A program made the position numbers and the translations under genes. The notes under the pieces were generated by a model. The model was given only the letters and a program-made list of their open reading frames with translations, was not told the DNA's origin and did no database searches. From an uncultured Latescibacterota bacterium (GTDB lineage Bacteria > Latescibacterota > UBA2968), in assembly GCA_958295785.1 (NCBI GenBank), contig OY282377.1, positions 3,598,896-3,662,895 of the forward strand: a DNA stretch of 64,000 bases, written 5' to 3'. The first letter of the stretch is position 1. The number at the start of each line of letters is the position of its first letter. Shown here in pieces: positions 6,422 through 63,689 of the stretch.

Positions 6422-9232
6422 CCCGTTCACGCGGTCAATGTCATAGACCTTCAGCACTTCGTCGCCGTAGTGATTGATGACTTTGATGGCGATTTTGCCG
6501 GTTTCGGGCGGGGCAAAGGGGAGGCTTTGCGTGCGGTACAGATCGCCCCAAGCGGCTTCGTCAATTTCCGTGCGGAGGGCGCGTTTGAGGTTGTCGTAGG
6601 GCCGGTCCGAACCGGTGAAATACGCATGGCGAACAAAGAAGCTTTCGCCGCTGTAGGCGGTGTCAATGAACCAGCACGCCACATCGTCCGTTGAAGAACA
6701 GCGCAAATCGCCGGTGGTGGGGTCATAGACATCCACGCCCAAGAGTTCAACCATGAGCATCCCGTCGTCTTGTGGGTGAAGCGCGATATCGGGTTCGCCA
6801 AAAATCATGAACAAATTGCCCGCGCCGGTTTTTTTCAGCAGATCGTCGCCCATAGCGAGATCGGGATTCATGCGCGTTGGCAAAACCGTGAGCCTGCCGT
6901 AGCGTTTGGATTCTTCGCTGACGTGGGGGTCAAAGGCAAATCCGCCGACAACGAGCAAATCAAAGCCCAAGCCCTGCACGGCTTCTTTGGCGGCTTCTTT
7001 GACTTGCTGCGGGCCAACCGTGCCGTGTTCGGGGCCAATGGAGACCGCCACCCGGCGGCTCTGTCTATCGGCGTCTGTGTAATCGCCTTCGGCGTGTACC
7101 CACGCGCCTGGATACGGTTCGAGGCGGTCGAATTCGAGGCGTTCGTTTTTGCGCGTGTTTTGCACGCCGGCTCTGCGGAGGTTCTCGATAATCGTCGTGG
7201 CGAAATCCTGTTGTTTTCGCGCTTCTCGCTCGGATACCGTGCCGTCCATGTTTTCATCGGCGGCGAGAACGCGATGGGGCGAGAGGCTTTCGACCGTGAA
7301 CGGCCCGGTCACGCGCACGCGCTTGGCGTCTTGATAGGGCTGATCGTACAGGGTTTCGGCCTCGGCATGTCGGGCAATGACCGCGTCAATTTCAGCTTGG
7401 CGTGTTTTTTTCATATCCCAATAGGTTGCAAGAGTTGCTTTGAGTGCTTTTGATCCTTTTTCGATAGCGCGGGGAATTTCCCATTCCCGATAGTTTTTCC
7501 CTGCCAGGCCGTTAATGTTTTTTCGCAGTGGTTCGAGTTTCTCCTGCCATCGTGCGTGAATCGCGTCAATGTCCGGGTTGTTGGCGATGAACTTGAGCGT
7601 GATATGCGGCACGCGCGTGTACACAAAGCCCTTTTTAATATCGTTTTCAGTGGGATAATCGGACGGCACTTGCCCCATGAGTTCGGCCTCTTTTTGCACG
7701 CCTTCAGGCGAATCGGCGAGGAGATAATACGGATAGCGCGCAGACATCAAGCGGGTGCGGGCGAGCGCGAAGGCAACGCGAGACGTGTCAATCGCAATCC
7801 ACCGCCGCCCCCATTGCTCGGCAACCACCGCAGTCGTGCCGCTGCCACAGGTGGGGTCGAGCACCAAATCGCCGGGGTCAGTGGTCATGAGGAGACAGCG
7901 TTGGATGACTTTTGTTCCTGTCTGGACGACGTATATTTTTTTGTCCGTAAAGCTACCCGTAGCTGTATCATCCCAAAAATTTGAAAATGGAGTTACGGGA
8001 TAATCATCTATGAAACGACAAAAATTGGGAAATCCGGCAGAAAGTGTAATTCGATCTTGAATTGCAAGACGACGAAGACCTTCGACGGTAGTGGCCCAGT
8101 GAGTTCCGGGACGTGGATAGTAAATTTTTCCTTGAAACTTAAAATCTTGAGGTGTGTTTGTCGTTCCTTGCGAGCATATATCACTCAAGCGAAATAGTTT
8201 TGCATCACTGGGAATTAGTTCCCGATTTTTCTTTTCTCTTGCTGTCAGTTTTCTTCTGGTACCATCTGCAAGTTCTATCCATTGGTAAACATCATAACCT
8301 CGTCCCTCTCTCTTTTTTTTATATTGCTGTCGATACTTTAGCTGATCTCTATTTTTTCCATACCAAACAAGAAAGTCACAGACATTTGATAGGTAATTTG
8401 GCGAAAAACCGCTCGTTTTTGCAAATGGAATCAGGCTGACAAAATTCTCACTGCCAAACACCTCATCCATCAAGCACCGGACGAGATGCACGTTTTCATC
8501 GCCGATTTGCACAAAGATGGAACCGGTTTCGGTGAGGAGTTCGCGGGCCGCGAGCAGGCGGTCGCGCAAATAGGTGAGATAGGAATGGATGCCGAGCCGC
8601 CAAGTGTCGCGGAAGGCGCGGATTTGTTCGGGCTGGCGGGTGAGGTCATCGGCGCGGCCATCGCGCACATTGCGTTTGCGCGTGCTGACCTGCCAGTTGG
8701 AGCCAAATTTGATGCCGTAGGGCGGGTCGATGTAGATCATCTGCACTCGACCTTTGAGGCGTTCTTTTTCTGCCAAACTGGTCATAACGAGGAGCGAGTC
8801 GCCCAAAACCAAGCGGTTGGACCAATGCGGTTGGCTTTCCGCGTCGTGGCTATAGAAATCGAGTTTGCGCTCAAAGTCGTCATCTTCCAAGCCGTTGAAG
8901 TCGTTAAAAAGGTTGAACTGGCGAGCCGGGGTTTCTTCGGCACAAGCGCGTGCAGATCGGCGAAAATTTTCGATAATGGCTTGGGGATGAATTTTTTCCT
9001 GAATGTAGATCGGCACAACCGGCACGGCGAGGTCTTCGGCGTCTTGCTCGTCTTTGCCTTTCCACACCAGTTGCGGGTCGAGCGATGGGTCGCGCGGATA
9101 CAATTTGGCCTCGGTGCTGCGTTCATCATCGGGCACAAAATCGCGCAGTTCTTCTGTTGGGATATTGGCGCGTCGATCAGCGTGTTTAATCGCGTCAATG
9201 GGATTTTCAGGAGAGGACTTTGAGAGGGACAT
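6419..9232 (-). CDS. Type III restriction-modification methyltransferase subunit (Mod)
   Basis: A 937-residue adenine-specific DNA methyltransferase of the beta class: catalytic DPPY at 169-172 and the SAM-binding DPTCGSGT at 459-466. The long N-terminal extension, the central specificity region and the large C-terminal domain (DIDAIHARWQEKLEPLRKNI onward) match Mod proteins that partner large Res subunits. The Mod subunit alone sets recognition and methylates one strand of the asymmetric site. The partner Res is encoded just upstream on the same strand, separated only by the DUF5615 gene. About 7915-8460, covering the specificity domain, is visibly AT-richer than the rest of the gene. Confidence 0.92.
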   Translation of the reverse strand: MSLSKSSPENPIDAIKHADRRANIPTEELRDFVPDDERSTEAKLYPRDPSLDPQLVWKGKDEQDAEDLAVPVVPIYIQEKIHPQAIIENFRRSARACAEETPARQFNLFNDFNGLEDDDFERKLDFYSHDAESQPHWSNRLVLGDSLLVMTSLAEKERLKGRVQMIYIDPPYGIKFGSNWQVSTRKRNVRDGRADDLTRQPEQIRAFRDTWRLGIHSYLTYLRDRLLAARELLTETGSIFVQIGDENVHLVRCLMDEVFGSENFVSLIPFAKTSGFSPNYLSNVCDFLVWYGKNRDQLKYRQQYKKKREGRGYDVYQWIELADGTRRKLTAREKKNRELIPSDAKLFRLSDICSQGTTNTPQDFKFQGKIYYPRPGTHWATTVEGLRRLAIQDRITLSAGFPNFCRFIDDYPVTPFSNFWDDTATGSFTDKKIYVVQTGTKVIQRCLLMTTDPGDLVLDPTCGSGTTAVVAEQWGRRWIAIDTSRVAFALARTRLMSARYPYYLLADSPEGVQKEAELMGQVPSDYPTENDIKKGFVYTRVPHITLKFIANNPDIDAIHARWQEKLEPLRKNINGLAGKNYREWEIPRAIEKGSKALKATLATYWDMKKTRQAEIDAVIARHAEAETLYDQPYQDAKRVRVTGPFTVESLSPHRVLAADENMDGTVSEREARKQQDFATTIIENLRRAGVQNTRKNERLEFDRLEPYPGAWVHAEGDYTDADRQSRRVAVSIGPEHGTVGPQQVKEAAKEAVQGLGFDLLVVGGFAFDPHVSEESKRYGRLTVLPTRMNPDLAMGDDLLKKTGAGNLFMIFGEPDIALHPQDDGMLMVELLGVDVYDPTTGDLRCSSTDDVACWFIDTAYSGESFFVRHAYFTGSDRPYDNLKRALRTEIDEAAWGDLYRTQSLPFAPPETGKIAIKVINHYGDEVLKVYDIDRVNG

Positions 9233-9236
9233 AGGT

Positions 9237-9572
9237 CTAACCTTTGGTTACGCGGATTAACTTTTTAGCCAATGAGTTGTGCATTCGGATTTTCCGGTCA
9301 ATGCGGTCGGCAAGTGCCCGAAAGTCGCGGTCCTCGGTGCAAACCACAATGCCTGTATGGGCATTATTGCCATGGTGAAGTCTGATGAAGTCGGTGCGAT
9401 TGAGTGTGATAACAGCGCGATTTTTCGAGGTGGCAAAGATCAATACCTGCTCATCGGACACGCGCTTGTTTGCGCGACCGGATTCCTGCGACGTGAGCAC
9501 ATTGTGACCGAGGGCGCGAAGGCGTTTGACCGCAGGCAAGGGGAAATTCTCGTTTGCGTATAAATCAGCCAC
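9237..9572 (-). CDS. DUF5615 (Mut7-C/PIN-like) toxin
   Basis: A 111-residue protein starting VADLYANENFPLPAVKRLRA, with the DExL/NEN acidic strand, LRALGHNVLTSQE, AVITLNRTDFIRLH and GIVVCTEDRD blocks typical of DUF5615 proteins, the PIN-like toxins paired with DUF433 antitoxins. I chose GTG 9572 because it overlaps the TGA stop of the upstream res-DUF433 gene by 8 bases, implying translational coupling; the open frame upstream lies inside res. The 3' end is 4 bp from the mod start, so res, toxin and mod form one operon. Confidence 0.82.
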   Translation of the reverse strand: MADLYANENFPLPAVKRLRALGHNVLTSQESGRANKRVSDEQVLIFATSKNRAVITLNRTDFIRLHHGNNAHTGIVVCTEDRDFRALADRIDRKIRMHNSLAKKLIRVTKG

Positions 9573-12500
9573 GGGCCGGGATTTCCTCCTCGTCCTGCTC
9601 TCGAATATCGCGGTCAATTTCTGCGCGGTGCGTCTCGTAGTATTTTTGCACGCGATTCAGGTGATCAGCAGTGAGTGTCGGATAAGCCCGCATCACATCT
9701 GCCTCGGTCGCGCCTTGCTGAAAAAAGCTGATCAGCGTCCAAACGGGAATGCGCGTGTTGCCCACGCATGCTCTGCCGCCGCAGACGCCGGGCGTTTTTT
9801 GAATTTCGAGGGCGACGCGAGAGGACAACGCGGGCATGGCACTGCGAATTTTTGCAAGCTTCAGTTTAACGGCTTCAACGGACATGACGCGAGAGGACAA
9901 CGCGGGTATGGCACTGCGAATCTGGTTTTGCGCGTTCCACGGATCGGTAATTTCGATGAATGCCCACCGTCCAAATCCGCCGTGATTGTCCACAGCGGGT
10001 ATCCACAGGGTTTGGGCGGTTTCAACTTTGATGGCCTTGTCTTTTTTTTGTTCGCCAGTGACTTCAACGACGAGGTTGAGCGGGTTTTCTTTTCCATGTC
10101 CATCGTCAATGTGAACGATAAAGTCGGGATAATAGTGCCTTTCCTCCCCGTTGAGCGTATAGGGAATGCCAAAGCCGAGTTGGTGGTTTTTGACATAGCA
10201 CGCGACCTCGTCCATCTCTTCCAATGCCTGGGCCATTTTTTGTTCCCATGAATGGGTGTCCGCCACAACATGGGAAATATGGCATTTTTCCGGGTGCGTG
10301 GCATAGACCGGGCGCGTGGTATCAAAATCGACATAGCGGGTTGACCCCAGAGCATCGCAAGGGCGAAGAATGGGTTTGACGACAGGATGGCCCGATGGGG
10401 AACGCACAACGGCTTTGTAGATGCGGTCAGCTGCGTCGTGCATCAAATCGCCGATCAGCAAAAGCTGGGGAAACGCATTGTCTTTGCAAAAAACACACTC
10501 GGCCAAATAGCGTTTGGCAATGGCGAGCAACGATGGAAAGAAATAGGGCCGGTCATGGCCTTGATCGTCGCGAAAATATTTTTCCAGCGTCAGCTTTGCC
10601 ACGCGAAATGCCACGTCATTGACGCGCCGCCGCTTGAGGTGGTCGAGCGTGTGGTGGCTGGATTGGCCGACAATGGGCGCGTTTTTGGTGTGGGTGGGAA
10701 TGTCGTAAGTGGAAAGCACCTGTTTGGAAGTTTCGCCAAATGTCGCTGTCAACTGTTCGCCGATCACTTCATAGCGATACCCGAGCAGACGGGGAAATGT
10801 GATTTCGCACCCCGCGCGGTCTGTGAGGGCGCGCACCCGCGTAGGCACGGGGCCGGGTTTGGGATTCGGGCTGGAGCCAGAACAGGGAATAAACGAAAAG
10901 GGAACGCCGTAAACTTCGGCATATTCGGGTTCAAACAAGCCCTCTGCATCGGACGTATAATTCATGCGGCGCAGCGCGCGACCAACGACCTGTTCGCACA
11001 GAAGTTGTGTGCCAAAGGCGCGCACCCCAAGAATGTGCGTGACCGTGTTGGCATCCCAACCTTCGGTCAGCATCGAGACGCTCACCACGCATTTGATGTG
11101 TTCGCCCAGTTTGCCCGGTTTGCCGACTGTGTTCATCACCTCGCGCAACAGATCTTCGTCTGTGAGTTTTTCCGCGTCGCGTCCGGGAAAGCGTTGCCGA
11201 TATTCGGCTTTGAACTCTTCGATTTCACGGGCGGCCAGTTTCTTAAACTCGCCACTTAGGGCCTCGCCCGATTCGAGTTGTTCGCTGTCTATCAAAATGG
11301 TATTGGGGCGGTGCAAATAATTTCCCCGCCCATCGTCGTTTCGGAAAATGGGCAATGCCCCCGCCTGCACGACCGCGTGGTCGCCAATCTGTTTTTCCCA
11401 ACCTGCGATATAATCGAAAACGAGTTTGGACACAGTGGTGTTGCTACAAACCACGATCAATACGGGCGGGGTTGTACCGCGTTCTTTCGCGCTGCGGTTT
11501 TGTTCCCATTGGCGATGGTACTTTTCATAATTTCCGTACAGACTGTGCAACGCGCCTTGAAGTTCTGCCGGAAGTTTGGGGTCGCGGCTGTCGCTGTCTT
11601 TCCCGCGTCCTTTTCTCGGCAGGTTTTCCCGAATGCGCGTCCACAGGTCGCGATAAGTCGGCTGCTCGGCCTGCATGGCATTGTCTTCAACCGGCACGCG
11701 AGGCACTTTGACAATGCCCGATTCAATGGCGTCAATCAATGAAAAATCAGAGACAACCCACGGAAAAAGCGCGGCTTCGGGCCAGCCAGACCCCCGCAAA
11801 AAGAAAGGCGTTGCCGAAAGATCATAGATCGTTTTGACGCCGATTTTCGCCTTGATCGCCTCAATGCCCGAAATCCAAATACGCGCTTCTTTTGCGCGCT
11901 TGGTTGCCTCGCGGCGGTCGTCGCGTGAAAGCCTTTCCCGCTCGCCATCCGGTTTTCTTCGGTAGCAGTGATGCGCTTCGTCATTTATGACAATGATATT
12001 TCTTTTGCTGCCCAGTTCGCGGCAAACGCGGCGCACCATTTCACCGGGGGTTTCGGTGAACGCGCCGTTGGCGAGAACCGTTTTGGTGATTTTGCGCGGT
12101 ATTTTCTCCCGGCGTCTGAATGCGTGAAAATTGGTGATCACAATGCGCGCCTGACCGAGTTGCTCGAGCAGATGTGGCGGCAGAATATCGCGCTGGCGAT
12201 AATAGTTTTCCGGATCATTGGGCAACAAAACGCGCAGGCGGTCGCGGATGGTAATGCCCGGCGTGACGATGAGAAAGGTATTGGAAAACCGCGCATTCCG
12301 CGGGTCGGCCATTTTGTTGAGCACCTGATAGGCGATGAGCATGGCCATCACAACGGTTTTGCCCGCACCTGTCGCCATTTTGAAGGCGATGCGCGGCAGG
12401 CCGGGATTGGACGTATCGTTGGCTTTACGCAACTCGTTTTCAATCCAACTATCGCCGTATTTTCGAGCGGCCTCGGTGATGTAAATGGCGGTTTCCACAG

Positions 12501-12855
12501 CTTCAATTTGGCAAAAAAAGAGCTTGCGTTCGCGGTCTGGATTCGTCCAATAAGCAAGCAAACGGCGCGTGGTGGATGTCGCCCCGGCATAGCCCCCCTG
12601 ACGCCAGATGGCAACGCGCTCTCGAATGCGATTGACCAGCCGGTTTTCTTCAAGGCGATCCCGCGTCCATTCGGTATCAAAAACCATCTGTCGACGGCTT
12701 TTGTTGCGCGGTTGGGCGATGGGTATAAAGTAGGCACTTTTGCGACGGGCCTCGATCACATCGTTGGTAATCCCTTCGTCCGAGAAGCGAAAGTGCCTTT
12801 GCGGTGCGCGATACGGCGAATTGAGAACGGGATTTTCAATGACGACTTGGTTCAT
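9565..12855 (-). CDS. Type III restriction enzyme Res subunit with C-terminal DUF433 antitoxin domain
   Basis: A 1096-residue protein. Residues 1-1000 are a type III Res: Walker A ATGAGKT at 161-167, NDEAHH (DEAH box) at 291-296, LSATPFFLRGSG, the motif VI region LCEQVVGRALRRMNY, and a C-terminal PD-(D/E)XK nuclease with YYPDFIVHIDDG and VVEVTG. It cleaves DNA after ATP-driven communication between two sites bound with Mod. After DPWNAQNQ a DUF433 domain follows (PGVCGGRACVGNTRIPVWTL, then ADVMRAYPTLTADHLNRVQK), normally a separate antitoxin. The next gene is its DUF5615 toxin partner. An in-frame Met at 9885 could also give a free 106-residue antitoxin. A 36-bp repeat marks the junction. Confidence 0.9.
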   Translation of the reverse strand: MNQVVIENPVLNSPYRAPQRHFRFSDEGITNDVIEARRKSAYFIPIAQPRNKSRRQMVFDTEWTRDRLEENRLVNRIRERVAIWRQGGYAGATSTTRRLLAYWTNPDRERKLFFCQIEAVETAIYITEAARKYGDSWIENELRKANDTSNPGLPRIAFKMATGAGKTVVMAMLIAYQVLNKMADPRNARFSNTFLIVTPGITIRDRLRVLLPNDPENYYRQRDILPPHLLEQLGQARIVITNFHAFRRREKIPRKITKTVLANGAFTETPGEMVRRVCRELGSKRNIIVINDEAHHCYRRKPDGERERLSRDDRREATKRAKEARIWISGIEAIKAKIGVKTIYDLSATPFFLRGSGWPEAALFPWVVSDFSLIDAIESGIVKVPRVPVEDNAMQAEQPTYRDLWTRIRENLPRKGRGKDSDSRDPKLPAELQGALHSLYGNYEKYHRQWEQNRSAKERGTTPPVLIVVCSNTTVSKLVFDYIAGWEKQIGDHAVVQAGALPIFRNDDGRGNYLHRPNTILIDSEQLESGEALSGEFKKLAAREIEEFKAEYRQRFPGRDAEKLTDEDLLREVMNTVGKPGKLGEHIKCVVSVSMLTEGWDANTVTHILGVRAFGTQLLCEQVVGRALRRMNYTSDAEGLFEPEYAEVYGVPFSFIPCSGSSPNPKPGPVPTRVRALTDRAGCEITFPRLLGYRYEVIGEQLTATFGETSKQVLSTYDIPTHTKNAPIVGQSSHHTLDHLKRRRVNDVAFRVAKLTLEKYFRDDQGHDRPYFFPSLLAIAKRYLAECVFCKDNAFPQLLLIGDLMHDAADRIYKAVVRSPSGHPVVKPILRPCDALGSTRYVDFDTTRPVYATHPEKCHISHVVADTHSWEQKMAQALEEMDEVACYVKNHQLGFGIPYTLNGEERHYYPDFIVHIDDGHGKENPLNLVVEVTGEQKKDKAIKVETAQTLWIPAVDNHGGFGRWAFIEITDPWNAQNQIRSAIPALSSRVMSVEAVKLKLAKIRSAMPALSSRVALEIQKTPGVCGGRACVGNTRIPVWTLISFFQQGATEADVMRAYPTLTADHLNRVQKYYETHRAEIDRDIREQDEEEIPARG
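9814..9921 (-). repeat. 36-bp direct repeat at the Res-DUF433 junction
   Basis: Two copies, 9814-9849 and 9886-9921, with one mismatch and 72 bp (24 codons) apart. Each encodes IRSAxPALSSRV. The duplication sits exactly where Res homology ends and DUF433 homology starts, and it keeps the frame open through both. Confidence 0.9.
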
Positions 12856-38528: not shown

Positions 38529-39273
38529 TGAACAGAAAGCGCACGGATTTGCCGCGTGCGTCAAACCCGCCTTTGCCCGCATCGCGGCTCGACAATTCCC
38601 GCATAAAATTTGCAATCCACGTCGCGTCTCGTTTCCATTGCGGCACGGCATTGCGGACAAATGTTCGCACCCAGGCCGCATTGCGATTCACGTCCGCATC
38701 GGATACACCGAGCACTGTCACCATAATCTCAGACCGCAACAAATCGGTCTCTGGCCCCCAGAACTCCAGCACCACTTGCCCATCGCCCGTCGCGCCGATA
38801 TGCCTCGGCTGTCCCTCGAGGGGATCCATTTCCTCCAATATCAAATCATCGGGCATCCCCGCGATCATGCCATCGATAGACAGGGCATCGGCAGACTTTC
38901 GCGGCGTTGGGGTTGCGGGTTGCGGCGGGCGCGTCACAGGCCGTTTTTTTTTCGCGCTTGAACGACTCGCGAGGTCTTTTTGCAATGCGGCACGCACGGC
39001 GGCGGCGTCCCCTACATAATGGCCGTGTACCCACCCCTCGGTCTCATCCACGCGCACGCGCAACCACGGGTCGGCCCGTTCGACGATCTCCAACTCGCGG
39101 CCGCGTTGCAACCGCCCCACCACACGCGACTTTGTCGTCGGCTTTTCCCGCAAATTCAACACCACAGCCGCGACATAGCCCTTTTCTTTCGGCGCGAGAT
39201 ACCCACACCCACCCAAACTCGCAATCAAAAGAAAAAAAAGGCCGACAAAAAATCGACCAGACAAAAACACCAT
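38485..39273 (-). CDS. SH3-domain lipoprotein
   Basis: A 262-residue protein with signal peptide and lipobox (LLIASLGGCGYLAPKEKG, lipidated Cys at about 23). A bacterial SH3 domain spans 33-90 (VVLNLREKPTTKSRVVGRLQ, WLRVRVDETEGWVHGHYV), then a Pro/Lys linker and a C-terminal domain of about 130 residues with no assigned family. Anchored in the envelope, it may bind peptidoglycan. AGGATG precedes ATG 39273. The last 70 residues are duplicated at 31694-31905. Confidence 0.85.
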   Translation of the reverse strand: MVFLSGRFFVGLFFLLIASLGGCGYLAPKEKGYVAAVVLNLREKPTTKSRVVGRLQRGRELEIVERADPWLRVRVDETEGWVHGHYVGDAAAVRAALQKDLASRSSAKKKRPVTRPPQPATPTPRKSADALSIDGMIAGMPDDLILEEMDPLEGQPRHIGATGDGQVVLEFWGPETDLLRSEIMVTVLGVSDADVNRNAAWVRTFVRNAVPQWKRDATWIANFMRELSSRDAGKGGFDARGKSVRFLFIKPLGAIRVTIEKA

Positions 39274-39289
39274 CGATCATCCTTTCGCC

Positions 39290-40050
39290 ATTCTGCATTA
39301 TCCAATGATATACGCCATGTAAGGGGATGCCCTTGGCCTCCCGCTCTTGAAAGAAGGCCAAAACTTCTCGGCGCAGTTCCGCCTGCGTCGCGATGCGCCT
39401 ATTCAAACATCCTCGCGCCAGAGCCGAAAACTCAATCTCGATCATGTTGAGCCAACTCGCCGACTTGGGAGTAAAGAAGAACTCAAACTTCTGCGCGAGG
39501 GCAAACGCCTCATCGGCCGGCAAGGAACGATAGAAGGCATGGCGGGTATGCGTGTTGAGATTGTCTTGCACCAAGCGGATTTTCTCCGCTTGTGGCCAAT
39601 GCTGTGTCAGCGCCTGACAAAAGTGGGTGTCTTCCTTCATCGTGCGCCGAGGATAGATTTCGGCAAGCCGTTTGCCGCTTAAAGGCTCAATGGCGGCCAA
39701 CAGCGCACGCGAGCCGTGTTTGGTATAGGCATCATGTTCTTTGGTCACTTGGCCTGTTGTTAGGGGCAAGGGATCCAGGACTTGTCCGATGAGAAAACAA
39801 GGACGTTCATCAAAGCAGACCCCAGGAACATTGGGATCATGAGGGTGGTCATACAGCCAAAGCAAGGCTTCCATGCGCGCGAGAAAGGACGCATCCACTT
39901 TGCGGATGCACCAGGTTTTCTTCAAGTGGGGCTTCAATTCGTTTTTTTAGAATCGTTTTAACATGCGTGTGTGAGAGATGCTCACAAGAGCCTAATGCCA
40001 CAGGACTTGACCGACTGACAGTGTCGCAATCAAGTGGTTCGTTGTCGAAA
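39290..40050 (-). pseudogene. IS630-family transposase remnant
   Basis: Catalytic parts are visible: VCFDERPCFLIGQVLDPLPL (first Asp), KIRLVQDNLNTHTRHAFYRS (second Asp) and FTPKSASWLNMIEIEFSALA (Glu). The N-terminal helix-turn-helix is represented only by SPVALGSCEHLSHTHVKTIL in another frame, joined by a frameshift near 39930. The natural end is missing, and the frame runs into the SH3 gene upstream region. No terminal repeats found. Confidence 0.8.
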
Positions 40051-40051
40051 C

Positions 40052-40921
40052 TCATTCCCCTCGAGCGCACCGAAACCCGATCTGGGCAAATATCTGATGC
40101 GTGCCCGCATCGTCTGATTGCTCTTCCATAATTAGCACCGAACTCCGCACAAACACGCGGACATTGTGTTGCGCCGAAAACCAACCCCCGCCGCGAAGCG
40201 TGCGATCCGGGCCATCTTCCATGCCCGCATTTTTCAAATTGACCGGATTGTGAACCGGGCTGTTTGCGTAATACGTATGCTGGTATTCATCCAGCGTCCA
40301 CTCCCACACATTGCCCGCCATATCCAACGCGCCAAAAGGACTCGCCCCCTCTGGATAGCTGCCCACGGGCGTTGGGCCGGAACTAAAATTGAAATTGCCG
40401 AGCGACTCATCTGCTGGCGCGTTGCCCCACGGAAACACGCGCCCATCCGTGCCCGCAGCGGTCAATTCCCACTGCGCTTCACTCGGCAACTGCAAACCCG
40501 CCCACTGGCAATAATCCCGCGCCTGATTCCACACCAAACCCACCACCGGTTGATCGGGTTGATTAAAACCCTCCTCCCGAATAAACTGCGGGCGTTCACT
40601 GCCCGTTGCCTCAACATAACCCAAATACTGCGCGTTGGTCACTTCGTATTTGTCGATGTAAAATGCGTCGAGCATCACCTCGTGCGCTGGGCGCGCATTG
40701 GACGGGCCATCGCTCAAACCCATTGTAAATGTGCTGGCCGGAACAAACACCTGCACATGCTCTGTGCCCGCAGGCGTGGTGACAATGGATTCTTCAATCA
40801 CAAATTCCGGCTCGACCACCTTGCCGCAGGCCACCGGCAACACAACGGCCAAAACGCCGAACAAACGCACGGGCAACGCGCCGACAATGCAGCGCAGAAA
40901 ATCAATCGCTTTTGGCATCAT
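40052..40921 (-). CDS. FGE/SUMF1-like (sulfatase-modifying factor) domain lipoprotein
   Basis: About 289 residues. A hydrophobic N-terminus ending in PVACGK suggests a lipoprotein, followed by the formylglycine-generating-enzyme-like domain: FTMGLSDGPSNARPAHEVML, FYIDKYEVTNAQYLGYV, RDYCQWAGLQLPSEAQWE, GALDMAGNVWEWTLDEYQ, TLRGGGWF and IGFRCARGE. The cysteines of true FGE are not apparent, so it is more likely a C-type-lectin-fold binding or modification domain. ATG 40921 follows GAGGATC. It lies downstream of the TPR-YcaO pair on the same strand. Confidence 0.85.
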   Translation of the reverse strand: MMPKAIDFLRCIVGALPVRLFGVLAVVLPVACGKVVEPEFVIEESIVTTPAGTEHVQVFVPASTFTMGLSDGPSNARPAHEVMLDAFYIDKYEVTNAQYLGYVEATGSERPQFIREEGFNQPDQPVVGLVWNQARDYCQWAGLQLPSEAQWELTAAGTDGRVFPWGNAPADESLGNFNFSSGPTPVGSYPEGASPFGALDMAGNVWEWTLDEYQHTYYANSPVHNPVNLKNAGMEDGPDRTLRGGGWFSAQHNVRVFVRSSVLIMEEQSDDAGTHQIFAQIGFRCARGE

Positions 40922-40962
40922 AGTTTCGATCCTCGTCCCTGCGTTTCGCCTCTCGTTGATTC

Positions 40963-40989
40963 GGGCGGGCACGGGGGCCGCGCCCCTAC
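40963..40989. repeat. Dispersed GC palindrome repeat
   Basis: Copy in the 126-bp gap between the YcaO and FGE-like genes. Its hairpin could attenuate transcription between them. Confidence 0.8.
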
Positions 40990-41047
40990 ATTTTTACGTC
41001 CTCAATTTCGAGGGTGGCTGAGTTGGGACTGACCACCGACCACGGCA

Positions 41048-42058
41048 TCATCCTCCCCCCCACATCATATAATCCCCCGAATCCACCATAATGCGATGGA
41101 CATACGTCTCGATCATCGCTTGGTCGCGCTTTGTGGTCTTTAAGCCAAAGGGCCGCAACACGGGAATTTGCATCTCGGGGTGCGTCCAATCTTGCACGTA
41201 AACCGGCGCTTTCATGCCGCGCAAGACCACCTGAATATCGGTTATCAAATCGTCTGTAAAATGATTGGGCAAATCCCACAGTGCAACCTCCGGGGCAAAG
41301 GTGTGCAAATCGGAAACAAACCGGGTTTTGTGACTTTGCACGGTCTCATTAAACGCCCGTTGCAACGCCACGCGCCCATCCAAATGCGCGCATGTGCGAA
41401 CCAGAGGCCCCAGGTCTTTGGGACACACAACCGCGTGAACCGTCGTCACCTTTTCATTTTCCCCCGGCGCGGCCACGGCCAGCATCTTCTCGGCAACGCA
41501 CGGGGGGAAGCCCGTCAGCATGGGATCGATAAATTGCCGGTGTTTCAAGCCCGGCCAGTAAAAGTGCATCCCCACATCCATGTGCTCGTGCATCTCCAAC
41601 AAGCCGTGAAACACGCACTCCAGCGCCGTATTGCCCGCCGACACGCCATTGGCCGAATCATTCAAATGCGGCACCTCAGACGCCTTCATGTCGGTCGGCA
41701 CGAGCTCGACATTCGGCGTCAATTCGCAAATCGGGGTTTCGCGCCCGCTTGCCAGCGCGTCAAAAAACGAAATCCGCTCGACCGCCTCGGCCATGGCCCC
41801 GGCCAGCACTTGCGCTTTGGAAAGCCCCTTGCCCATGGTCCGCAGGGCAATGCCCTCCATCAGCGGCCCTTCGTATTTGCGAAACAGAGCCGACTGCACG
41901 TAATCCGTATAACAATCCGCGATCCACACGGTCTTGTAAAACCGCCGCGCCCGCGTCTGAAATCGACACATCTTGGACAATGCCTCGCCAAACCGGGCAA
42001 TGGTTTCTTCAAACGCAACCGTGCGATCCGCAACGACAATGTGATGCGACGCGCTCAT
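41048..42058 (-). CDS. YcaO-family ATP-dependent cyclodehydratase-like protein
   Basis: A 336-residue YcaO protein. The ATP/Mg motifs are visible: GAMAEAVERISF at 88-98 (AExxER) and NDSANGVSAGNTALECVFHG with LLEMHE at 133-157 (the SNGxAxGxxxxEAxxHGLxE motif). YcaO enzymes activate peptide-bond oxygens with ATP to make azolines, thioamides or amidines, or act with RimO. The C-terminus is YMMWGGG, without the Pro-rich tail of azoline-forming members. Its ATG overlaps the stop of the upstream TPR gene (ATGA), so the two are co-translated. No precursor peptide was found next to it. Confidence 0.88.
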   Translation of the reverse strand: MSASHHIVVADRTVAFEETIARFGEALSKMCRFQTRARRFYKTVWIADCYTDYVQSALFRKYEGPLMEGIALRTMGKGLSKAQVLAGAMAEAVERISFFDALASGRETPICELTPNVELVPTDMKASEVPHLNDSANGVSAGNTALECVFHGLLEMHEHMDVGMHFYWPGLKHRQFIDPMLTGFPPCVAEKMLAVAAPGENEKVTTVHAVVCPKDLGPLVRTCAHLDGRVALQRAFNETVQSHKTRFVSDLHTFAPEVALWDLPNHFTDDLITDIQVVLRGMKAPVYVQDWTHPEMQIPVLRPFGLKTTKRDQAMIETYVHRIMVDSGDYMMWGGG

Positions 42059-43188
42059 CCCGCCCTTGCTCTGTTCAGATCTTCAACAGCTTCCACAAAT
42101 CGACCCAATTGCCGAAACGCCTCTGCGCGCCGTTCCCGCGCCCATCCGTTTTCCGGATCGAGATCCAACGCGCGCGTAAAGTCCGCAACCGCTTCTTCGC
42201 ATTGCCCGAGCATCCGCCGGGTTTCGCCGCGCTGCGCCCAGATCCGCGAATCCCCATGCGCGATCCGCACGGCCCGATCAAAATCCGCGAGCGACGCCTC
42301 GAGATCATTTTCCATTCGCCGCGCAACGCCGCGCCCCAACAGTGCCCACAGATGATCGGGCACAATATCCAACGCCTGGGTAAAATCGCGGATCGCCTCG
42401 GCGCTACGCCCCATCTGTTGCAATATGTCTGCCCGCCCGACCAACAAATCCGGATCATCCGGCGCGAGAACGAGCGCGTGGTCAAAATCCGCGAGCGCGG
42501 CTGTCCATTGCCCGCTCGCCCGCAGCACCTCGCCCCGGCCGATCAACGCGCCCAAATGGTTGGGCATCGCCTTTAGAGCCTGATCAAACATCGCCATTGC
42601 GCCCTCGGCACTCCCGCCCCGCCGATAGACCTCTGCCCGCCCGACAAACGCATCGGGATGCCCATTGCCCACGGCTATCGCCCGATCAAAATCGCCCGCC
42701 GCCGCGTCGCATTGTCCCATCGCCAGCCACACATGCCCTCGGCTGATCAACGCGCCAAAATAATCTGCATCCCGTTTCAAAACCCGATTGAGATCCCCCA
42801 GCGCCGCGTCAAACCGCCCCATCTCGCGCAGGGTTTCCCCGCGGCTGGCAAGCGTCTGCGTATTGTTTGGATCGAGCGCGATAGCTTTTCCAAAGCTGTC
42901 GATAGCCGCGTCAAATTGCCCCATCAACCCGCAGGCTATCGCCCGATTCGCCCACACCCATGGATCATCGGGCGCGAGGGTGATCGCGCGGTCAAAATCC
43001 GCAATGGCCGCGTCAAATTGCCCCAGTTGCCCATTTGCGATCCCGCGATGCACATAAGCCGCCGGGTCGCTATTGCGGATCGCGATTGCCGCATCAAACC
43101 CCGCTATCGCCGCTTCCAAATCGCCGGCATCGCGGCGGGCTATCGCGTGCTGAAGCGCGGCGTCAAAGTCATTTGAAGATAGAGACAT
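42055..43188 (-). CDS. TPR-repeat protein coupled to YcaO
   Basis: About 377 residues made of about ten tetratricopeptide repeats with a strong consensus (AAIADFDRAITLAPDDPWVW, AAIDSFGKAIALDPNNTQTL and so on). I favour ATG 43188 (MSLSSNDFDAALQHAIARRD), where the first repeat starts; a GTG at 43245 would add a hydrophobic stretch (HVLAVLGFPFFA) that might be a signal peptide. Neither has a good ribosome site. It overlaps YcaO by 4 bases. E. coli YcaO has a C-terminal TPR-like domain, so this may be the same function split in two genes. Confidence 0.85.
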   Translation of the reverse strand: MSLSSNDFDAALQHAIARRDAGDLEAAIAGFDAAIAIRNSDPAAYVHRGIANGQLGQFDAAIADFDRAITLAPDDPWVWANRAIACGLMGQFDAAIDSFGKAIALDPNNTQTLASRGETLREMGRFDAALGDLNRVLKRDADYFGALISRGHVWLAMGQCDAAAGDFDRAIAVGNGHPDAFVGRAEVYRRGGSAEGAMAMFDQALKAMPNHLGALIGRGEVLRASGQWTAALADFDHALVLAPDDPDLLVGRADILQQMGRSAEAIRDFTQALDIVPDHLWALLGRGVARRMENDLEASLADFDRAVRIAHGDSRIWAQRGETRRMLGQCEEAVADFTRALDLDPENGWARERRAEAFRQLGRFVEAVEDLNRARAG

Positions 43189-43445
43189 AGCAAAAAAGGG
43201 GAACCCCAAAACCGCCAAAACGTGAACACAATGTAGAAAAGCCACTCCCCAAAATCAAGCGCAAACCCCGATACATTTTTTTTCCACATGCGAATGCGAT
43301 TTGCTATATTATCAGCCGTGCCTTGCGATTGCCTATCATCCGCGTCATCTGTTTAATCCGTGATCCGCCTTTAACCCCTAACCACTGCTTCTATGATTGC
43401 TTTTCACCTCTCTCGTCTCATCCCCTTTATCCAATGGAGGAACCC

Positions 43446-44735
43446 ATGAAATACCGTCTCTTCTTTCTCGCCCTGTTTCTGTCTCTGTGTACAACCGCTT
43501 TCGCCCAAAGGGTGGGTGAAAAAATGCCCGGATTTCAACTTAGGGCCACCGATGGCAAATCGTACAGCGTCAATGATTCGAGCAACACGGTCTCCGTCCT
43601 CTTTTTTGTCGGCTTCAACTGAGGGACATGCATAGGGGCGGGTCCCGCCTTTGAAGCTAATATTCACCAACCCAACCGCAACAAACCCGGCGTCCAAGTC
43701 CTCACGCTCGACAGGTACAACGGCAATTCCGGGCAGGCAGAATCCTTTCTGACACGAGCCAGGGTAACGACGCCTATGCTCATGAATGCGGGCACCATCT
43801 CCGGAACTTATGGCGCCAGAAACGAAGATATCCTCGTCATTGACCAAGCGGGCATCCTGCGCCTTAAGACCACTGCCCTCGGCACCGGCAATCTTGCCTC
43901 AGTCAACCAGAGGGTTGACGCCCTCATCAACCAATCGCCGGTTATTTCCCTGTCCGTGCGACAGCTTTACTTTGGCAGAACGCTCGAAGTGGGGCAATCC
44001 AAAACCGTCGATCTCACCATCAACAACACGGGCGCGGGGCCGCTCGAAATCACCGGATACTCGGCACCCGATGGCATCACCATGACGCCCTCCTCCCTGA
44101 CCATCAACCCCGGCGAAACTCAAACCGTTCAAATCACCCTCACGCCAACGCAACCCGGCACATTTTCAGGTAGCATCACACTCCAACACGGCGACCAAAG
44201 CGTCGGCACCCTGCAAGTACCGGTGCTCAATCTCACCATCGAAATGGCCCCATTGCCGAGCATTGCACTCATGCAAGAAAGTTTGAGTTTGGGTGAAATT
44301 AAGGTGGGCAACAGCATCACAAAAACAGTCACCATCACCAACAGCGGCACAGGCCCGCTCACCGTCACGGACATTCGATCCGACATCGCGGGCATCGCGT
44401 TTTCAGAAACCCAATTCACCGTGCCCGCCGGTTCATCTCACGACATCACCGTGACGTTCAACCCACAAGCCGAGGGGCCGATCACAGGCACCATTGACAT
44501 CCTCTCAGACGACCCGCAAAACGCCTCGATCAACCTGACCATCACCGGCTCAATCACCGGTCCACGCACGCGCTCCGATTTCGATGGTTCGGGCGAGATT
44601 GACTTTTCAGACTTCCGCTTGTTTGTAGCAGCCTTTAACACGGTCAATCCAACCTTTGATCTCGACAACTCGGGCCGCGTGGATTTTCTCGATTTTCTCA
44701 TCTTTGCCGCAGACTTTGAAAAACCGGTAAATTAA
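43446..44735 (+). CDS. Secreted thioredoxin-fold protein with UxxC (candidate selenoprotein), Ig-like and dockerin-type modules
   Basis: One frame of 429 residues interrupted only by TGA at 43620-43622 (residue 59). Layout: signal peptide MKYRLFFLALFLSLCTTAFA, redoxin/TlpA-like domain (22-160), two ASPM-SPD2-Hydin-like beta-sandwich repeats (SIALMQESLSLGEIKVGNSI and the one before), and a dockerin type I-like calcium-binding pair (DFDGSGEIDFSDFRLFVAAF, DLDNSGRVDFLDFLIFAADF). The TGA falls in VLFFVGFN-TGA-GTC, exactly the first Cys of the CxxC redox site, with C62 kept. Downstream sequence is still thioredoxin-like (cis-Pro in VTTPML). I therefore read it as selenocysteine. GGAGG precedes ATG 43446. 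If TGA were a true stop, only 58 residues would be made. Confidence 0.8.
43637..43649 (+). promoter_or_regulatory. Candidate bacterial SECIS hairpin
   Basis: GGCGG-GTC-CCGCC forms a five-base-pair stem with a three-base loop starting with G, 19 bases after the in-frame TGA. This agrees with the bacterial SECIS model (apical loop about 16-37 bases after UGA, G among its first bases). The sequence partly resembles the dispersed GC palindrome, so coincidence is possible. Confidence 0.55.
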
Positions 44736-45689: not shown

Positions 45690-47465
45690 ATGAAACGTCT
45701 CCTCGCCATCGCGCTCTTCCTCGCCTTGCCGCGCCACGCATGCGCCGAACCCCTCGGCCTTGGCGACCCCCTCGCCGATTTTGCCCTCGCGGACCTCAAT
45801 GGCGCGCCCGTCGCGCTTGGCGATTTATTCAGTGACCGCGCCCTCGTCATCGTCTTCAGTTCCATCGTCTGCCCGGCGTCGCTCAAATACGACATCCACC
45901 GCGCGCAAATTCACGATCAGTACGCGCCCAAAGGCATCCGCCTGATTTCCGTGAATGCCAACTTCAACGAAACCGACCGAGACATCCGCGGCCACTACGC
46001 CCAAAATCCCGTGCCCTTTATGGTCTTCCGCGACCCGCAAAACAAACTCGCGGACCACTTGGGCGCGACGCACACCCCCCAAGCCTTCCTCTTTGACGCA
46101 CAACGCCGCCTGCGCTACAAAGGCGAAATCGACAACGGTTGGGGCATAGCCGAAGATACCACCTCGCACGGTTTGTGGGACGCCCTCGACGCCCTGCTCG
46201 CCAACCGGGAAATCGCCAATCCCATCCTACCCAGCTTTGGTTGCGAAATCAGACGCCTGCCCCGCGTGACTACTGCCGCGCAGGCGTCCGCCCCAACATT
46301 TTACCGCGACATCTTGCCCCTGCTTCAAAACCGCTGCCAAACCTGCCATCGCCCGGGCGGCATGGGCCGCGTGCCCTTTTTTGACTACACCGAAGTCCTC
46401 GCCTGGGCCTATCAGATGCGCGACTCCATCGAAGCCCGCATCATGCCGCCGTGGAAAGCCCGCCCCGAATACGGCGACTTCAAAAACTCTCGCAGGCTCA
46501 CAGACGACGAAATCCACACCTTCGCACAATGGGTTGACCGCGGCATGCCCGAAGGCGATCCCGCAGACCGACCCGAACTCCGTGCATTTCCCACTGGCTG
46601 GACCTTGGGCAAGCCCGACTTGATCCTCCAACCCGAAGCCCCGTATCCACTCAAAGCCGTGGGGCGCGACGAATATCGCTGCTTTGTTTTGCCCACCCAA
46701 CAGGACAAAGACAATGACGTATCGGCCATTGAAGTCCTGCCCGGCGACCGCGAAGTCGTCCACCACGTCAGCGCGTACATCGACGTCTCGGGCAAAGCGC
46801 GCCTGCAAGAGAAAAACGCACCGGGGCAAGGCTATCCGTGTTTCGGCGGCATTGGCGTACCCATCTACGAATCCCTGGGCGGCTGGGCACCCGGCAACAC
46901 CCCGTTCATTCTCCCCGATGGCACGGCTCGGCATTTGCCCCCCAACAGCGACATCATTCTCCAAATCCACTACCACAAAATCGGCCGCGCCGCAACCGAT
47001 CACTCTCGGCTCGGCATTTACTTTGCCAAAAAACCCGTTGAAAAACGCCTCCGAGAAGAAGTCATCACCAGCCGCTTGCTCTTCATTCCGCCCAATGTCA
47101 AACGCCACCGGGTCACGGGATCGATCACCATCCCCTACGACCAGCACCTGCTCGGCATCTTGCCCCACATGCACTTGCTCGGTATGGAAATGAAACTCAC
47201 CGCCACCTATCCCGATGGCACGCAAAACCCTCTAATATGGGTCAAACCCTGGGACTTCAACTGGCAGGAAACCTACGTGTACAAAACCCCGGTCGCGCTC
47301 CCGCGCGGCACGCGCATCGCCCTTGAAGCCCATTACGACAATTCTGCCGACAACCCCCGAAACCCCAACAACCCGCCCCGCTTGGTGCGCTGGGGCGAAA
47401 ACTCAACCGACGAAATGTGTACGGCATTTCTCTACGTCACGCGCGATGATGAAAACCTGAGGTAA
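45690..47465 (+). CDS. Redoxin - cytochrome c - copper monooxygenase-like fusion protein
   Basis: A 591-residue exported protein. A signal peptide (MKRLLAIALFLALPRHACAE) is followed by a redoxin domain (25-180) with only one Cys at the active loop (VFSSIVCPASLK), a heme-binding CQTCH at about 215-219 in FYRDILPLLQNRCQTCHRPG, and a C-terminal PHM-type copper type II ascorbate-dependent monooxygenase fold with HHVSAYID (about 356) and LPHMHLLGMEM (about 492). This three-part architecture is known from Planctomycetes and related bacteria. It probably oxidises an organic substrate in the periplasm. It is in an operon with the genes before and after it (3-bp gap). Confidence 0.85.
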   Translation: MKRLLAIALFLALPRHACAEPLGLGDPLADFALADLNGAPVALGDLFSDRALVIVFSSIVCPASLKYDIHRAQIHDQYAPKGIRLISVNANFNETDRDIRGHYAQNPVPFMVFRDPQNKLADHLGATHTPQAFLFDAQRRLRYKGEIDNGWGIAEDTTSHGLWDALDALLANREIANPILPSFGCEIRRLPRVTTAAQASAPTFYRDILPLLQNRCQTCHRPGGMGRVPFFDYTEVLAWAYQMRDSIEARIMPPWKARPEYGDFKNSRRLTDDEIHTFAQWVDRGMPEGDPADRPELRAFPTGWTLGKPDLILQPEAPYPLKAVGRDEYRCFVLPTQQDKDNDVSAIEVLPGDREVVHHVSAYIDVSGKARLQEKNAPGQGYPCFGGIGVPIYESLGGWAPGNTPFILPDGTARHLPPNSDIILQIHYHKIGRAATDHSRLGIYFAKKPVEKRLREEVITSRLLFIPPNVKRHRVTGSITIPYDQHLLGILPHMHLLGMEMKLTATYPDGTQNPLIWVKPWDFNWQETYVYKTPVALPRGTRIALEAHYDNSADNPRNPNNPPRLVRWGENSTDEMCTAFLYVTRDDENLR

Positions 47466-60428: not shown

Positions 60429-63400
60429 TCAGCCATCAAACAGATCGCCGGTTCGCACCTTCGGCGGCTTGTACAGGGCGTCTGGGACGGTCGGCAACTC
60501 GGCGGCGCAGAAACAGTCACCCGCGACGACCGCCTCGAGCAGGCTTTCTTGTTCGGGATAGCGGGCGACAGTCGCCTCTAGCACCCAAAGCAACTCGAGC
60601 AACTCGGTCGTGAACGGGCTGCGCCAACGCATGGGGCGGATGTGGTCCAGCGGCGACGACTTCCTGCCGGCGCCATTCTTCATGCGGTACTTGAGCCAAG
60701 ACTGCACCCCCTTCAATCCAGAAACCTCAAACTCATACACCTCGGGCGCGACCGGCGCGAATTCGCCTTCGCCAACGCGCAACGTTTGGGTCGAGTCATT
60801 GTAAGCGAACGTTTCGGGGTAACCATCAACGTCACCGGGAACGGCTTTGGTACATCGCGCCGCGCCATTCGGCACAACGCCTCGTCCCATGCCCCCGGGA
60901 ACGAATCGCTGGCCGTACGTGTGCAGATAGAGCAACCGCGCCCCCGCCTTGCGGACCTCCTCAAATAGTCTCGCGTCCTTTGTGATCGGCACGCGCACTT
61001 GCCGCGCCTCCAACTCGCGCTCGAAACGCGCAGTAAAGGCCGGTTGCGCCAACGCGCCATAGATGTATGCCGCGAAATCTTCCGGCGTCACCGGGCGTCC
61101 GTACTCCTCGCTTAAGAGATCGAGCAGGCCGGGCGGGATATTCGCCTCTGAAGCATCGGCGGTGCGGTAAAGTGGAATGACATCTTTTGCTCCGCGTGCA
61201 GAAAAATGGTGAAGATCGGGAACCAACGCACAAGCAGTAAATGCTGGACCCCGACCGAGAAACTGCGTCAGCAGACTCGTCAAATATACCTGCCGGTCGC
61301 TGTGGGCGTGCCAAAGATCGGGGCGCGGGCGAGACATCAAGCGACCATCTGCGATGAGGTATTGGCGGTCAAAAGAGCGATAAGCGTATCTTTGCACTTG
61401 GGGGACAGAAGCGTCGCTTGGCAGTTCGGCAATTGGCGTCGGGTCATCGTTTCCCGTCAAGGCGACGCGATGCGTACCATCAACCGTGCGATCTTGGGTT
61501 TCTCGAAATGCCTCGGACCGATCGGTGGCATGTAGAAGTTCGCGCCAGCGGCGTTCTAGCGTTTCCGAATCGGGGGCGATAGGCCAAGTTCGTTTCAACT
61601 GAATGCCCGAATGTTGCCACGGCATTAGGTCAGTCAGCATGGGCCAAGCAAAATAATCGCCCTCGCCCGCCGGGCGAAACGGCGCGTGCCAATCGTCTGG
61701 GCAATCCCGCCATGCCACTGCCTCGAAATTGTCAATGCCGTCGAGCGCGGCGAGTTTTTGTTCGCGCGTTCCTTCAATGCGGGTATAGCAGACTTTTGCG
61801 GGGGCGTCTTTTTTTGCCTTTTTCGTCCGCAAAGCCACGGCAATGGCCACGGGCGTCTGAATCGCAAAGACATTATCGCTCCTGCGCGTGCCGCGTCCCT
61901 CGCCGCCGAGGTCGAGAATCCAAATTTCATCGCACTGCCGGCGCATATACTCGCGCATTCCACAAAAAGCATCGCCATGGAGATAACTCGACGCGGTAAT
62001 AAAACTGACCACGCCGCCCGACGGGTCGTGCTCAAAGACCTTCCACAATGCCCACCGCCAAAAATAAACATAGAGATTGTAGAGATTTTTGACATGCACC
62101 CCGTGCCCTGCGGCAATGGCGGGATCGAGAAAATCGCGGAAAATCGCATCTGCCCCCTTGCCATTGTCGCCCCAGCGGACCCATGATCCCGTGCGATCTC
62201 CATTGTCCGGGCGGGCGGCCTCGTGCCGGTCATAAGGCGGATTGCCCAAACACACGAGCACCGGAACCGCGCTCTTGACCTCAAGTGCCTTGGTGCGCTG
62301 CTCTGCGATGGGCTGAAAAAACAGCGGCAGTTGCATGGGCTCTGCGGGCGGGCTTTCGAGCGTATCGGTCAAATACACATGCGTGCCGTCTTGGGGCAGG
62401 TGTGCGCCGCGGTCGCGCAGGGCGCGGCTCACGCGCAGTTCGCTCACCGCGTAGGGGCCGATCATCCGCTCAAAGCCATACAAGTTTTCAGCCAGCGTAG
62501 CAGCTTGGCCCGCAACAGCCCCCGCGCCCTGCGCTGCTTCAACGCGGCCTAGGATGTGTTCGATAACGCCGAGCAAATAGGTCCCTGTTCCGGTTGCGGG
62601 ATCGAGCGTAATGACATCGGAATCGGCAAAACTCAGGGGTTTGCCGAGGCGGTGAACGAGCAACTCGTCAATCAAACGCACTTGGGCGCGGACCACCTCG
62701 ACCGGGGTGTAATAAGCACCGGCGTCCTTGCGGAGATTGGGATCGTAAACAGCGAGGAAATCTTCGTAAAAATAGAGCCAGGGATCTTCGGGGCCAGCGA
62801 GCGTGTCGGGCGGCACCACAGCGAGCACGCGCACGAGCACATCGAGGGAAGCGGTCATGTCGGCGCGCGCATTGGGATCCGTCAAAACGCGCAATGCGCG
62901 CGACAGCAAGTTGTGCTGTACATCGAGGGCCTCTACTGCGCTTTCAATGGTGAGCGGGTCGGCTCCCTCGCTGCGGCCTAACAGGAGGGCGAAAGCGACC
63001 GTCTGGGCATAAGCGTCTGCAAATTGCGCGTCCGTGGCGTCTGGAAAGAGCAATTGCCGCCAGTCTCCCGCGAGTTGCACGAGGGGCGAAGCCGAATTTT
63101 TAAGCGCGTCTGTCACATCTTCGCGCAACATGCGACACAGCGGCGCCAGCAGCGCGGCAAAGCCTTTGAGATCGATTTTGCCCTTGCGACCCGTGGGGAT
63201 AAAAGGCTCCCACGAGAGAAAATCGCGCAAGAGGTGTTCAATGGCGCGGGCGTCCCGAGGCGCGGCGGCCACATCGCCCGACAGGCGGACGACCTCATCC
63301 ACCAATTTGCCGTCGCGGTAGAGTGCCCACTCATTGCCGTCGGTATAGAGGATATTCGGCACAACCGAAAAGCGTTTGAACTGATCGCGATTGTGGCCCC

Positions 63401-63689
63401 GAAACCGGATGGCGGTCGCGCCGACGCCGGGGGCTTTGAGTTCGACATATCCGGCGAGCAACTGATCGCGGTGAACCGCGTAATCCGGACAACCGATCTG
63501 ATCGGGCAAGGGCGTTTCGCCCGTGCAGACCACATTCCAACCGAGCGCACGCGCCGCCTCGGCCATAAAAGTCTCAAATGGCCCGCGCACTTGGTCTTCT
63601 GCCTCGCCCAGGGTGACTTGCGTCATCTTGGCGGTCACCGCAGCGGCAAAGTTTTGCAATGCCTCGTGGATTGGCATACTCCGATTCAT
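60429..63689 (-). CDS. Single-chain restriction-modification enzyme (type ISP-like)
   Basis: A 1086-residue protein. An N-terminal PD-(D/E)XK nuclease (CPDYAVHRDQLLAGYVELKA at about 68-87) is followed by a helical linker, a gamma-class N6-adenine methyltransferase (DAGAYYTPVEVVRAQVRLID, DPATGTGTYLLG, catalytic NPPY at about 483) and a C-terminal target-recognition domain of type ISP type. LlaBIII/LlaGI-type ISP enzymes also have a helicase between nuclease and methylase; none is visible here and the length is shorter, so this is a type IIG-like relative. It would methylate host DNA and cut unmodified DNA. ATG 63689 is 3 bp after the HEPN-type gene. Confidence 0.87.
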   Translation of the reverse strand: MNRSMPIHEALQNFAAAVTAKMTQVTLGEAEDQVRGPFETFMAEAARALGWNVVCTGETPLPDQIGCPDYAVHRDQLLAGYVELKAPGVGATAIRFRGHNRDQFKRFSVVPNILYTDGNEWALYRDGKLVDEVVRLSGDVAAAPRDARAIEHLLRDFLSWEPFIPTGRKGKIDLKGFAALLAPLCRMLREDVTDALKNSASPLVQLAGDWRQLLFPDATDAQFADAYAQTVAFALLLGRSEGADPLTIESAVEALDVQHNLLSRALRVLTDPNARADMTASLDVLVRVLAVVPPDTLAGPEDPWLYFYEDFLAVYDPNLRKDAGAYYTPVEVVRAQVRLIDELLVHRLGKPLSFADSDVITLDPATGTGTYLLGVIEHILGRVEAAQGAGAVAGQAATLAENLYGFERMIGPYAVSELRVSRALRDRGAHLPQDGTHVYLTDTLESPPAEPMQLPLFFQPIAEQRTKALEVKSAVPVLVCLGNPPYDRHEAARPDNGDRTGSWVRWGDNGKGADAIFRDFLDPAIAAGHGVHVKNLYNLYVYFWRWALWKVFEHDPSGGVVSFITASSYLHGDAFCGMREYMRRQCDEIWILDLGGEGRGTRRSDNVFAIQTPVAIAVALRTKKAKKDAPAKVCYTRIEGTREQKLAALDGIDNFEAVAWRDCPDDWHAPFRPAGEGDYFAWPMLTDLMPWQHSGIQLKRTWPIAPDSETLERRWRELLHATDRSEAFRETQDRTVDGTHRVALTGNDDPTPIAELPSDASVPQVQRYAYRSFDRQYLIADGRLMSRPRPDLWHAHSDRQVYLTSLLTQFLGRGPAFTACALVPDLHHFSARGAKDVIPLYRTADASEANIPPGLLDLLSEEYGRPVTPEDFAAYIYGALAQPAFTARFERELEARQVRVPITKDARLFEEVRKAGARLLYLHTYGQRFVPGGMGRGVVPNGAARCTKAVPGDVDGYPETFAYNDSTQTLRVGEGEFAPVAPEVYEFEVSGLKGVQSWLKYRMKNGAGRKSSPLDHIRPMRWRSPFTTELLELLWVLEATVARYPEQESLLEAVVAGDCFCAAELPTVPDALYKPPKVRTGDLFDG

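Follow-up and report, generated by a model that had tools for sequence, protein, structure and literature searches.

Within a window of 64,000 nucleotides from an uncultured Latescibacterota bacterium lies a gene whose single in-frame UGA, at positions 43620-43622, is very probably read as selenocysteine (Sec), judging from its sequence and that of its relatives. The gene would then encode a selenoprotein, predicted to be exported, with a thioredoxin-fold domain, a pair of Ig-like repeats and, at the C-terminus, an EF-hand/dockerin-like tail (Table 1). The frame opens with the ATG at 43446, ends with the TAA at 44733-44735 and comprises 430 codons including the stop; the UGA is its only internal stop and stands in the context FFVGFN-U-GTC-IGAG. 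Reading and translation bear out the preliminary description of this DNA, which had proposed one 430-codon frame interrupted by this TGA alone and a UGTC context with the second redox Cys kept. The predicted signal peptide is convincing by eye and conserved among the relatives.

Table 1. Features of the selenoprotein gene and its product (window positions)
Feature	Position	Strand	Description	Basis
Selenoprotein gene	43446..44735	+	429 residues, UGA = Sec at residue 59	Translation with TGA = U; orthologues
Ribosome-binding site GGAGG	43436..43440	+	5 nt before ATG	Read directly from sequence
Predicted signal peptide	43446..43505	+	MKYRLFFLALFLSLCTTAFA, followed by Q	Sequence reading; hydrophobic N-terminal helix in model
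AhpC/TSA (PF00578), ResA/DsbE-like thioredoxin-fold domain	43512..43862	+	Residues 23-139	Pfam 3e-9; Foldseek
In-frame UGA, Sec59 (putative)	43620..43622	+	First position of UxxC redox motif	57 non-redundant homologous sites all TGA
Cys62 codon	43629..43631	+	Resolving Cys of Sec59-Gly-Thr-Cys62	Invariant column
bSECIS-like hairpin	43633..43653	+	9-pair stem, loop GUC closed by G-C (G-GUC-C)	Folding; covariation in relatives
Pro110 codon (TTP)	43773..43775	+	Putative thioredoxin-fold cis-Pro	Invariant column; position
First Ig-like repeat (ASH/HYDIN, choice-of-anchor D)	43935..44240	+	Approximate bounds	Pfam, NCBIfam, model
Second Ig-like repeat (ASH/HYDIN, choice-of-anchor D)	44253..44555	+		PF15780 6e-26 for whole protein; NCBIfam; model
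Paired EF-hand / dockerin-like C-terminal module	44571..44729	+	DFDGSGEIDFSDF ... DLDNSGRVDFLDF	Near-hits; model helices

Conservation of the in-frame UGA

Orthologues with TGA at the same codon were found in all ten congeneric genomes (64-68% identity), and the complete ones share the architecture of the window protein. A genus-level alignment was used, the alignment of the broad family being too divergent. The single window protein did not retrieve relatives as a query in the contig search; the census of 64 genomes of the phylum was performed with a 17-row profile of the redox domain. The profile scores were sharply two-peaked, with 55 matches of at least 101 bits and the next match at 81 bits. 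One TGA is carried by 54 of these 55 top matches, and the remaining one, from genome G012, contains no TGA; it has a Cys at the Sec position and, two codons ahead of it, a TAA. The matches of 81 bits or less are mostly uninterrupted Cys-type TlpA/ResA proteins. All 57 distinct sites read TGA-N6-TGY, i.e. UxxC; TAA or TAG was never found at the Sec codon in these sites or in the census, and Trp was not seen in that column among the homologues.

Homologues with Cys at residue 59 had been named in the preliminary description as a check on the Sec reading. The homologues have either TGA or Cys at this position, the latter in TlpA/ResA-type relatives with the motif WATWCxPC (L098, L099, L103 and L104) and in the interrupted G012 copy (L050). 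A search for close, intact Cys orthologues of the same architecture yielded only this one broken copy. L050 (G012:C34:80447-83812) has its TAA around position 1570 (FFG-stop-DCTGC) and may be the relic of a Cys form or a pseudogene.

Decay does occur in the family, as seen in L050 and in the truncated copies L092 and L107, and the TGA might accordingly be a nonsense mutation or a sequencing error in a normal Cys enzyme. Such a reading is hardly conceivable, as the identical TGA in the ten congeners and in the 57 distinct sites, the constant absence of TAA and TAG from the codon and a protein similarity of 64-68% on both sides of the TGA all speak against it. Chance or a base error is excluded because the same TGA stands in all ten congeneric genomes.

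UGA paralogues were seen as tandem pairs in several relatives (L071, L073, L075, L049 and L070), which suggests a local duplication of the selenoprotein gene. In other phyla, more distant exported TlpA-like proteins (L094, L095 and L096) carry the motifs WUGGC, WUPSC and TUGSC with strong hairpins after the TGA; judged from these sequences, Sec in a TlpA-like fold apparently extends beyond one phylum. Elsewhere within the 64-kb window, 11 motif matches with an in-frame TGA beside a Cys motif were found, all of which resemble non-coding frames by their context.

Selenium machinery of the host genome

The host genome consists of one contig of 5.66 Mb and is 99% complete. All four components that the preliminary description had listed for verification are present in it: selA (324032-325117, + strand, 486 bits), selB directly after it (325399-327282, + strand, 386 bits), a tRNA-Sec with anticodon UCA, TCA in the DNA (2160613-2160706, 70 bits), and selD, which adjoins the tRNA gene (2160823-2161746). 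The selD gene is itself a UGA selenoprotein gene. As its UGA lies at the known Sec site of SelD (SCGG-U-ASK) and is followed by CCAGC-GGT-GCTGG, it serves as an internal positive control. Across the phylum, the UGA family occurs in 34 of the 64 genomes, and SelA, above threshold or as a fragment, was detected in 33 of these 34 versus 13 of the 30 others (Fisher p ~2e-6, a value that overstates independence because the genomes are related). In genome G005, the assembly of which is 91% complete in 430 contigs, the UGA gene is present and SelA was not found.

Reassignments of UGA are known in other lineages, and the codon could in principle be read as Trp, Gly or Cys, either under an altered genetic code or by a near-cognate tRNA. 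This is extremely unlikely, since UGA terminates same-genus orthologues where the window gene has TAA, the genome possesses tRNA-Sec(UCA) together with SelA, SelB and SelD, and in the alignment the codon stands opposite the catalytic Cys of TlpA/ResA proteins and not opposite a Trp.

A SECIS-like hairpin after the UGA

Five G-C/C-G pairs (43637-43641/43645-43649), extendable to nine (43633-43641/43645-43653), form a hairpin after the UGA. The preliminary description had reported a five-pair hairpin with loop GTC, lying 19 nt after the TGA; the pairs and the loop were found as described, whereas the 19 nt apply to the start of the loop, the stem beginning earlier and being extendable. In the published bSECIS model the loop has 3-9 nt with a G within its first two nucleotides, the stem has 4-16 bp and the loop lies 16-37 nt after the UGA (PMC13188914). 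The window hairpin, with its loop G-GUC-C, 5-9 bp and distance of 19 nt, falls within all these limits.

Against dinucleotide shuffles of the single window sequence, the fold of the hairpin was unremarkable (z -0.64), and synonymous recoding and covariation were therefore applied. When the window gene was recoded synonymously with the protein kept, z was -3.1 (p 0.003); over 57 genes the mean z was -2.08, whereas 267 control stretches from these genes averaged -0.07 (sd 0.99). In several paralogues the hairpin is weak, with z above -1. In the f4-type set, a 7-pair stem has 89.5% of its cells paired, with compensatory GC/UA exchange, and in the f1/f2 paralogue set the stem exchanges GC/CG and GC/GU/AU; in either set none of 500 shuffles reached the covariation score. 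The covariation stems were picked after viewing the sequences and are shifted by a few bases from group to group, which makes the recoding test the cleaner evidence. The hairpin folds significantly beyond what coding explains. The insertion of Sec, as proposed in the preliminary description, is thus strongly supported at the sequence level by the machinery, the conserved TGA, the UxxC motif and the hairpin together.

Fold and probable activity of the redox domain

The AhpC/TSA model PF00578 matches the redox domain with 37.3 bits (cut-off 26). AlphaFold2, run with 26 family members, gave a model with a pLDDT of 86 and a pTM of 0.48, which makes the folds of the domains reliable, but not their relative placement. 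With the redox domain as query, Foldseek returned a putative disulfide isomerase of B. thetaiotaomicron (2ls5), DsbE (3gl3) and ResA (1su9), with TM-scores by target of 0.78-0.81, in agreement with the sequence search. The best Foldseek matches (cilia, CEP192, transglutaminase) were set aside, as they concern the Ig repeats alone. In the model, the first long helix starts at Sec59; the columns of Cys62 and Pro110 do not vary. The modelled layout is that of a thiol-disulfide oxidoreductase rather than of a TxxC peroxiredoxin.

A disulfide reductase or isomerase activity seems fairly likely from the sequence. The selenoprotein could instead be a peroxiredoxin-like peroxidase, as the Pfam match is AhpC/TSA, the published family name is Prx-like and Cys62 corresponds by motif position to the peroxidatic Cys of peroxiredoxins. 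This is an unlikely assignment, given that the motif is UxxC and not TxxC/U and that no peroxiredoxin is among the solved structures matched (ResA, DsbE and a putative disulfide isomerase).

Without decoding of the UGA, the longest callable ORF is the 319-codon ORF from 43776 to 44735, and this is what gene callers would report. The UGA might in that case be a true stop with partial readthrough, the main product being either a short peptide or an independent Ig/EF-hand protein of 319 residues that starts at the ATG at 43776. We regard this as very unlikely, because the redox domain is conserved before as well as after the UGA and translation from Met111 would begin within the thioredoxin fold. 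Sec insertion is usually inefficient, and both the full-length and the shorter product may therefore exist.

Repeats, tail and predicted export

The two Ig-like repeats of the preliminary description were recovered by Pfam as ASH/HYDIN repeats, whereas the matches to its dockerin-like module remained below the cut-offs. The window tail has two EF-hand-like loops, with a weak Pfam EF-hand match at residues 378-396 (22.9 bits, cut-off 25.4) and 20.7 bits for the NCBIfam dockerin_GC model (cut-off 29); Dockerin type I (PF00404) was not found above its cut-off in the window protein. A relative, L051, passes PF00404 with 35.3 bits. A match of the NCBIfam model OS_HP2 (seleno)protein was discounted: it is below the cut-off and is no evidence for Sec, as it lies on the Ig repeats, away from the Sec residue.

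The tails vary by lineage: f1 and f2 combine Ig repeats with an EF-hand/dockerin-like tail, f4 has sorting domains of the FlgD/T9SS type, and G121, which belongs to another phylum, carries a directly attached dockerin. Since export or anchoring tails are recurrently paired with the redox domain, the enzyme would act outside the cytoplasm. Docking to the surface through the tail has, from sequence, about an even chance of being correct. In the organism's own genome, some 45 further matches are confined to the EF-hand/dockerin-like C-terminal tail, on many large ORFs. A cellulosome-like system is not implied, because only one cohesin domain in the whole genome passes its cut-off (604085-604444).

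Genomic neighbourhood

The position of the gene is kept within the genus, according to the neighbourhood comparison. On the minus strand, divergent from the selenoprotein gene, lies a conserved three-gene block (40052-43245) coding for an FGE/sulfatase-modifying-type, a YcaO-domain and a TPR protein. Downstream on the same strand follow an unannotated protein, a redoxin with a copper type II monooxygenase C-terminal domain, and a TPR protein. The second of these (45690-47465, + strand) is an exported AhpC/TSA-redoxin fused to the C-terminal domain of a copper type II ascorbate-dependent monooxygenase; it adjoins the selenoprotein gene throughout the genus and is a possible functional partner. 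Elsewhere in the window are a DDE_3 (IS630-type) transposase ORF (39044-39937, minus strand) beside a lipoprotein-like ORF and, also on the minus strand, restriction-modification genes, with an N6/N4 methylase and a type III res subunit at 6419-12855 and a type ISP enzyme at 60429-63689.

Relation to known proteins

The lists of predicted selenoprotein families include the Prx-like thiol:disulfide oxidoreductases (PF00578, UxxC/UxxU; PMC9312934, PMC13188914), and PF00578 selenoproteins in which a thioredoxin-like UXXC motif replaces TXXU were reported for the Sargasso Sea data (PMC1088965). The window gene agrees with the definition of this family by its PF00578 match and by UGTC in place of TxxC/U, and it shares with it the AhpC/TSA domain with UxxC, the downstream bSECIS and the exchange of Cys and Sec in the wider family. 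It differs in that the domain is predicted to be exported and precedes Ig-like repeats with an EF-hand/dockerin-like tail, and in that Sec is nearly invariant in its subfamily. The claim of a new selenoprotein is therefore to be narrowed, as the UxxC type of PF00578 selenoprotein is already known (PMC9312934, PMC13188914); what appears to be new, and undescribed, is the exported, tail-bearing architecture together with the fixation of Sec across a candidate phylum. In keeping with the earlier view of the architecture as unusual, no such exported Ig-plus-EF-hand selenoprotein was found in the open-access papers searched, nor do these describe any Sec protein of Latescibacterota or any that bears a dockerin-type tail, an absence that is weak evidence.

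The ResA-like WAxxUGC selenoprotein (NCBIfam NF041054) likewise has a ResA-like Sec domain, but its motif is UGC and not UxxC; the window protein had no match to this model, and the relatives scored 17-23 bits (cut-off 300). None of the NCBIfam selenoprotein models fits the window redox domain. With the ResA/DsbE/TlpA oxidoreductases (1su9, 3gl3, 2ls5) the protein has in common the fold, the catalytic pair at the start of a helix, a Pro in the cis-Pro position and the predicted extracytoplasmic location, but these lack Ig or EF-hand modules, are ~20% identical and have Cys where the window protein has Sec. Exported Dockerin type I and choice-of-anchor D proteins also have a C-terminal pair of EF-hand-like calcium loops, along with Ig repeats of the anchor type, whereas the window tail is below the Dockerin cut-offs.

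Proposed mechanism and implications

From the frame, the machinery, the UGA conservation, the hairpin and the fold, all of them read from the sequence, we infer how the product may be made, exported, placed at the surface and put to work as a reductase on its substrate. SelB and Sec-tRNA(UCA) would decode the UGA, directed by the hairpin, and the Sec signal peptide would export the chain. In the mature protein, the ResA/DsbE-like domain would hold the catalytic pair Sec59-Gly-Thr-Cys62 facing Pro110, the two Ig-like repeats would form a stalk and the tail, presumably calcium-binding, would dock the protein onto the cell surface or a second secreted protein. With its low-pKa Sec, it may act as an extracytoplasmic thiol-disulfide reductase/isomerase, or as a related enzyme that reduces peroxide.

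Bacterial selenoproteins are mostly considered as enzymes that work inside the cell or in the periplasm, and Cys forms usually take their place readily. Here, three families within a candidate phylum appear to have fixed Sec, in a protein predicted to be exported whose surface or secretion tails are interchangeable. We tentatively suggest, at slightly less than an even chance, that the cell surface of Latescibacterota carries Sec thioredoxins on Ig stalks, attached by EF-hand/dockerin-like (f1, f2) or T9SS/FlgD-type (f4) tails, extracellular Sec chemistry being a fixed trait and not an occasional substitute for Cys. Ordinary annotation, which treats the UGA as a stop, loses the active site and leaves the 319-residue remnant. 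If the Sec reading is true, extracytoplasmic Sec chemistry, and the survival of Sec against oxidation outside the cytoplasm, would become directly testable.
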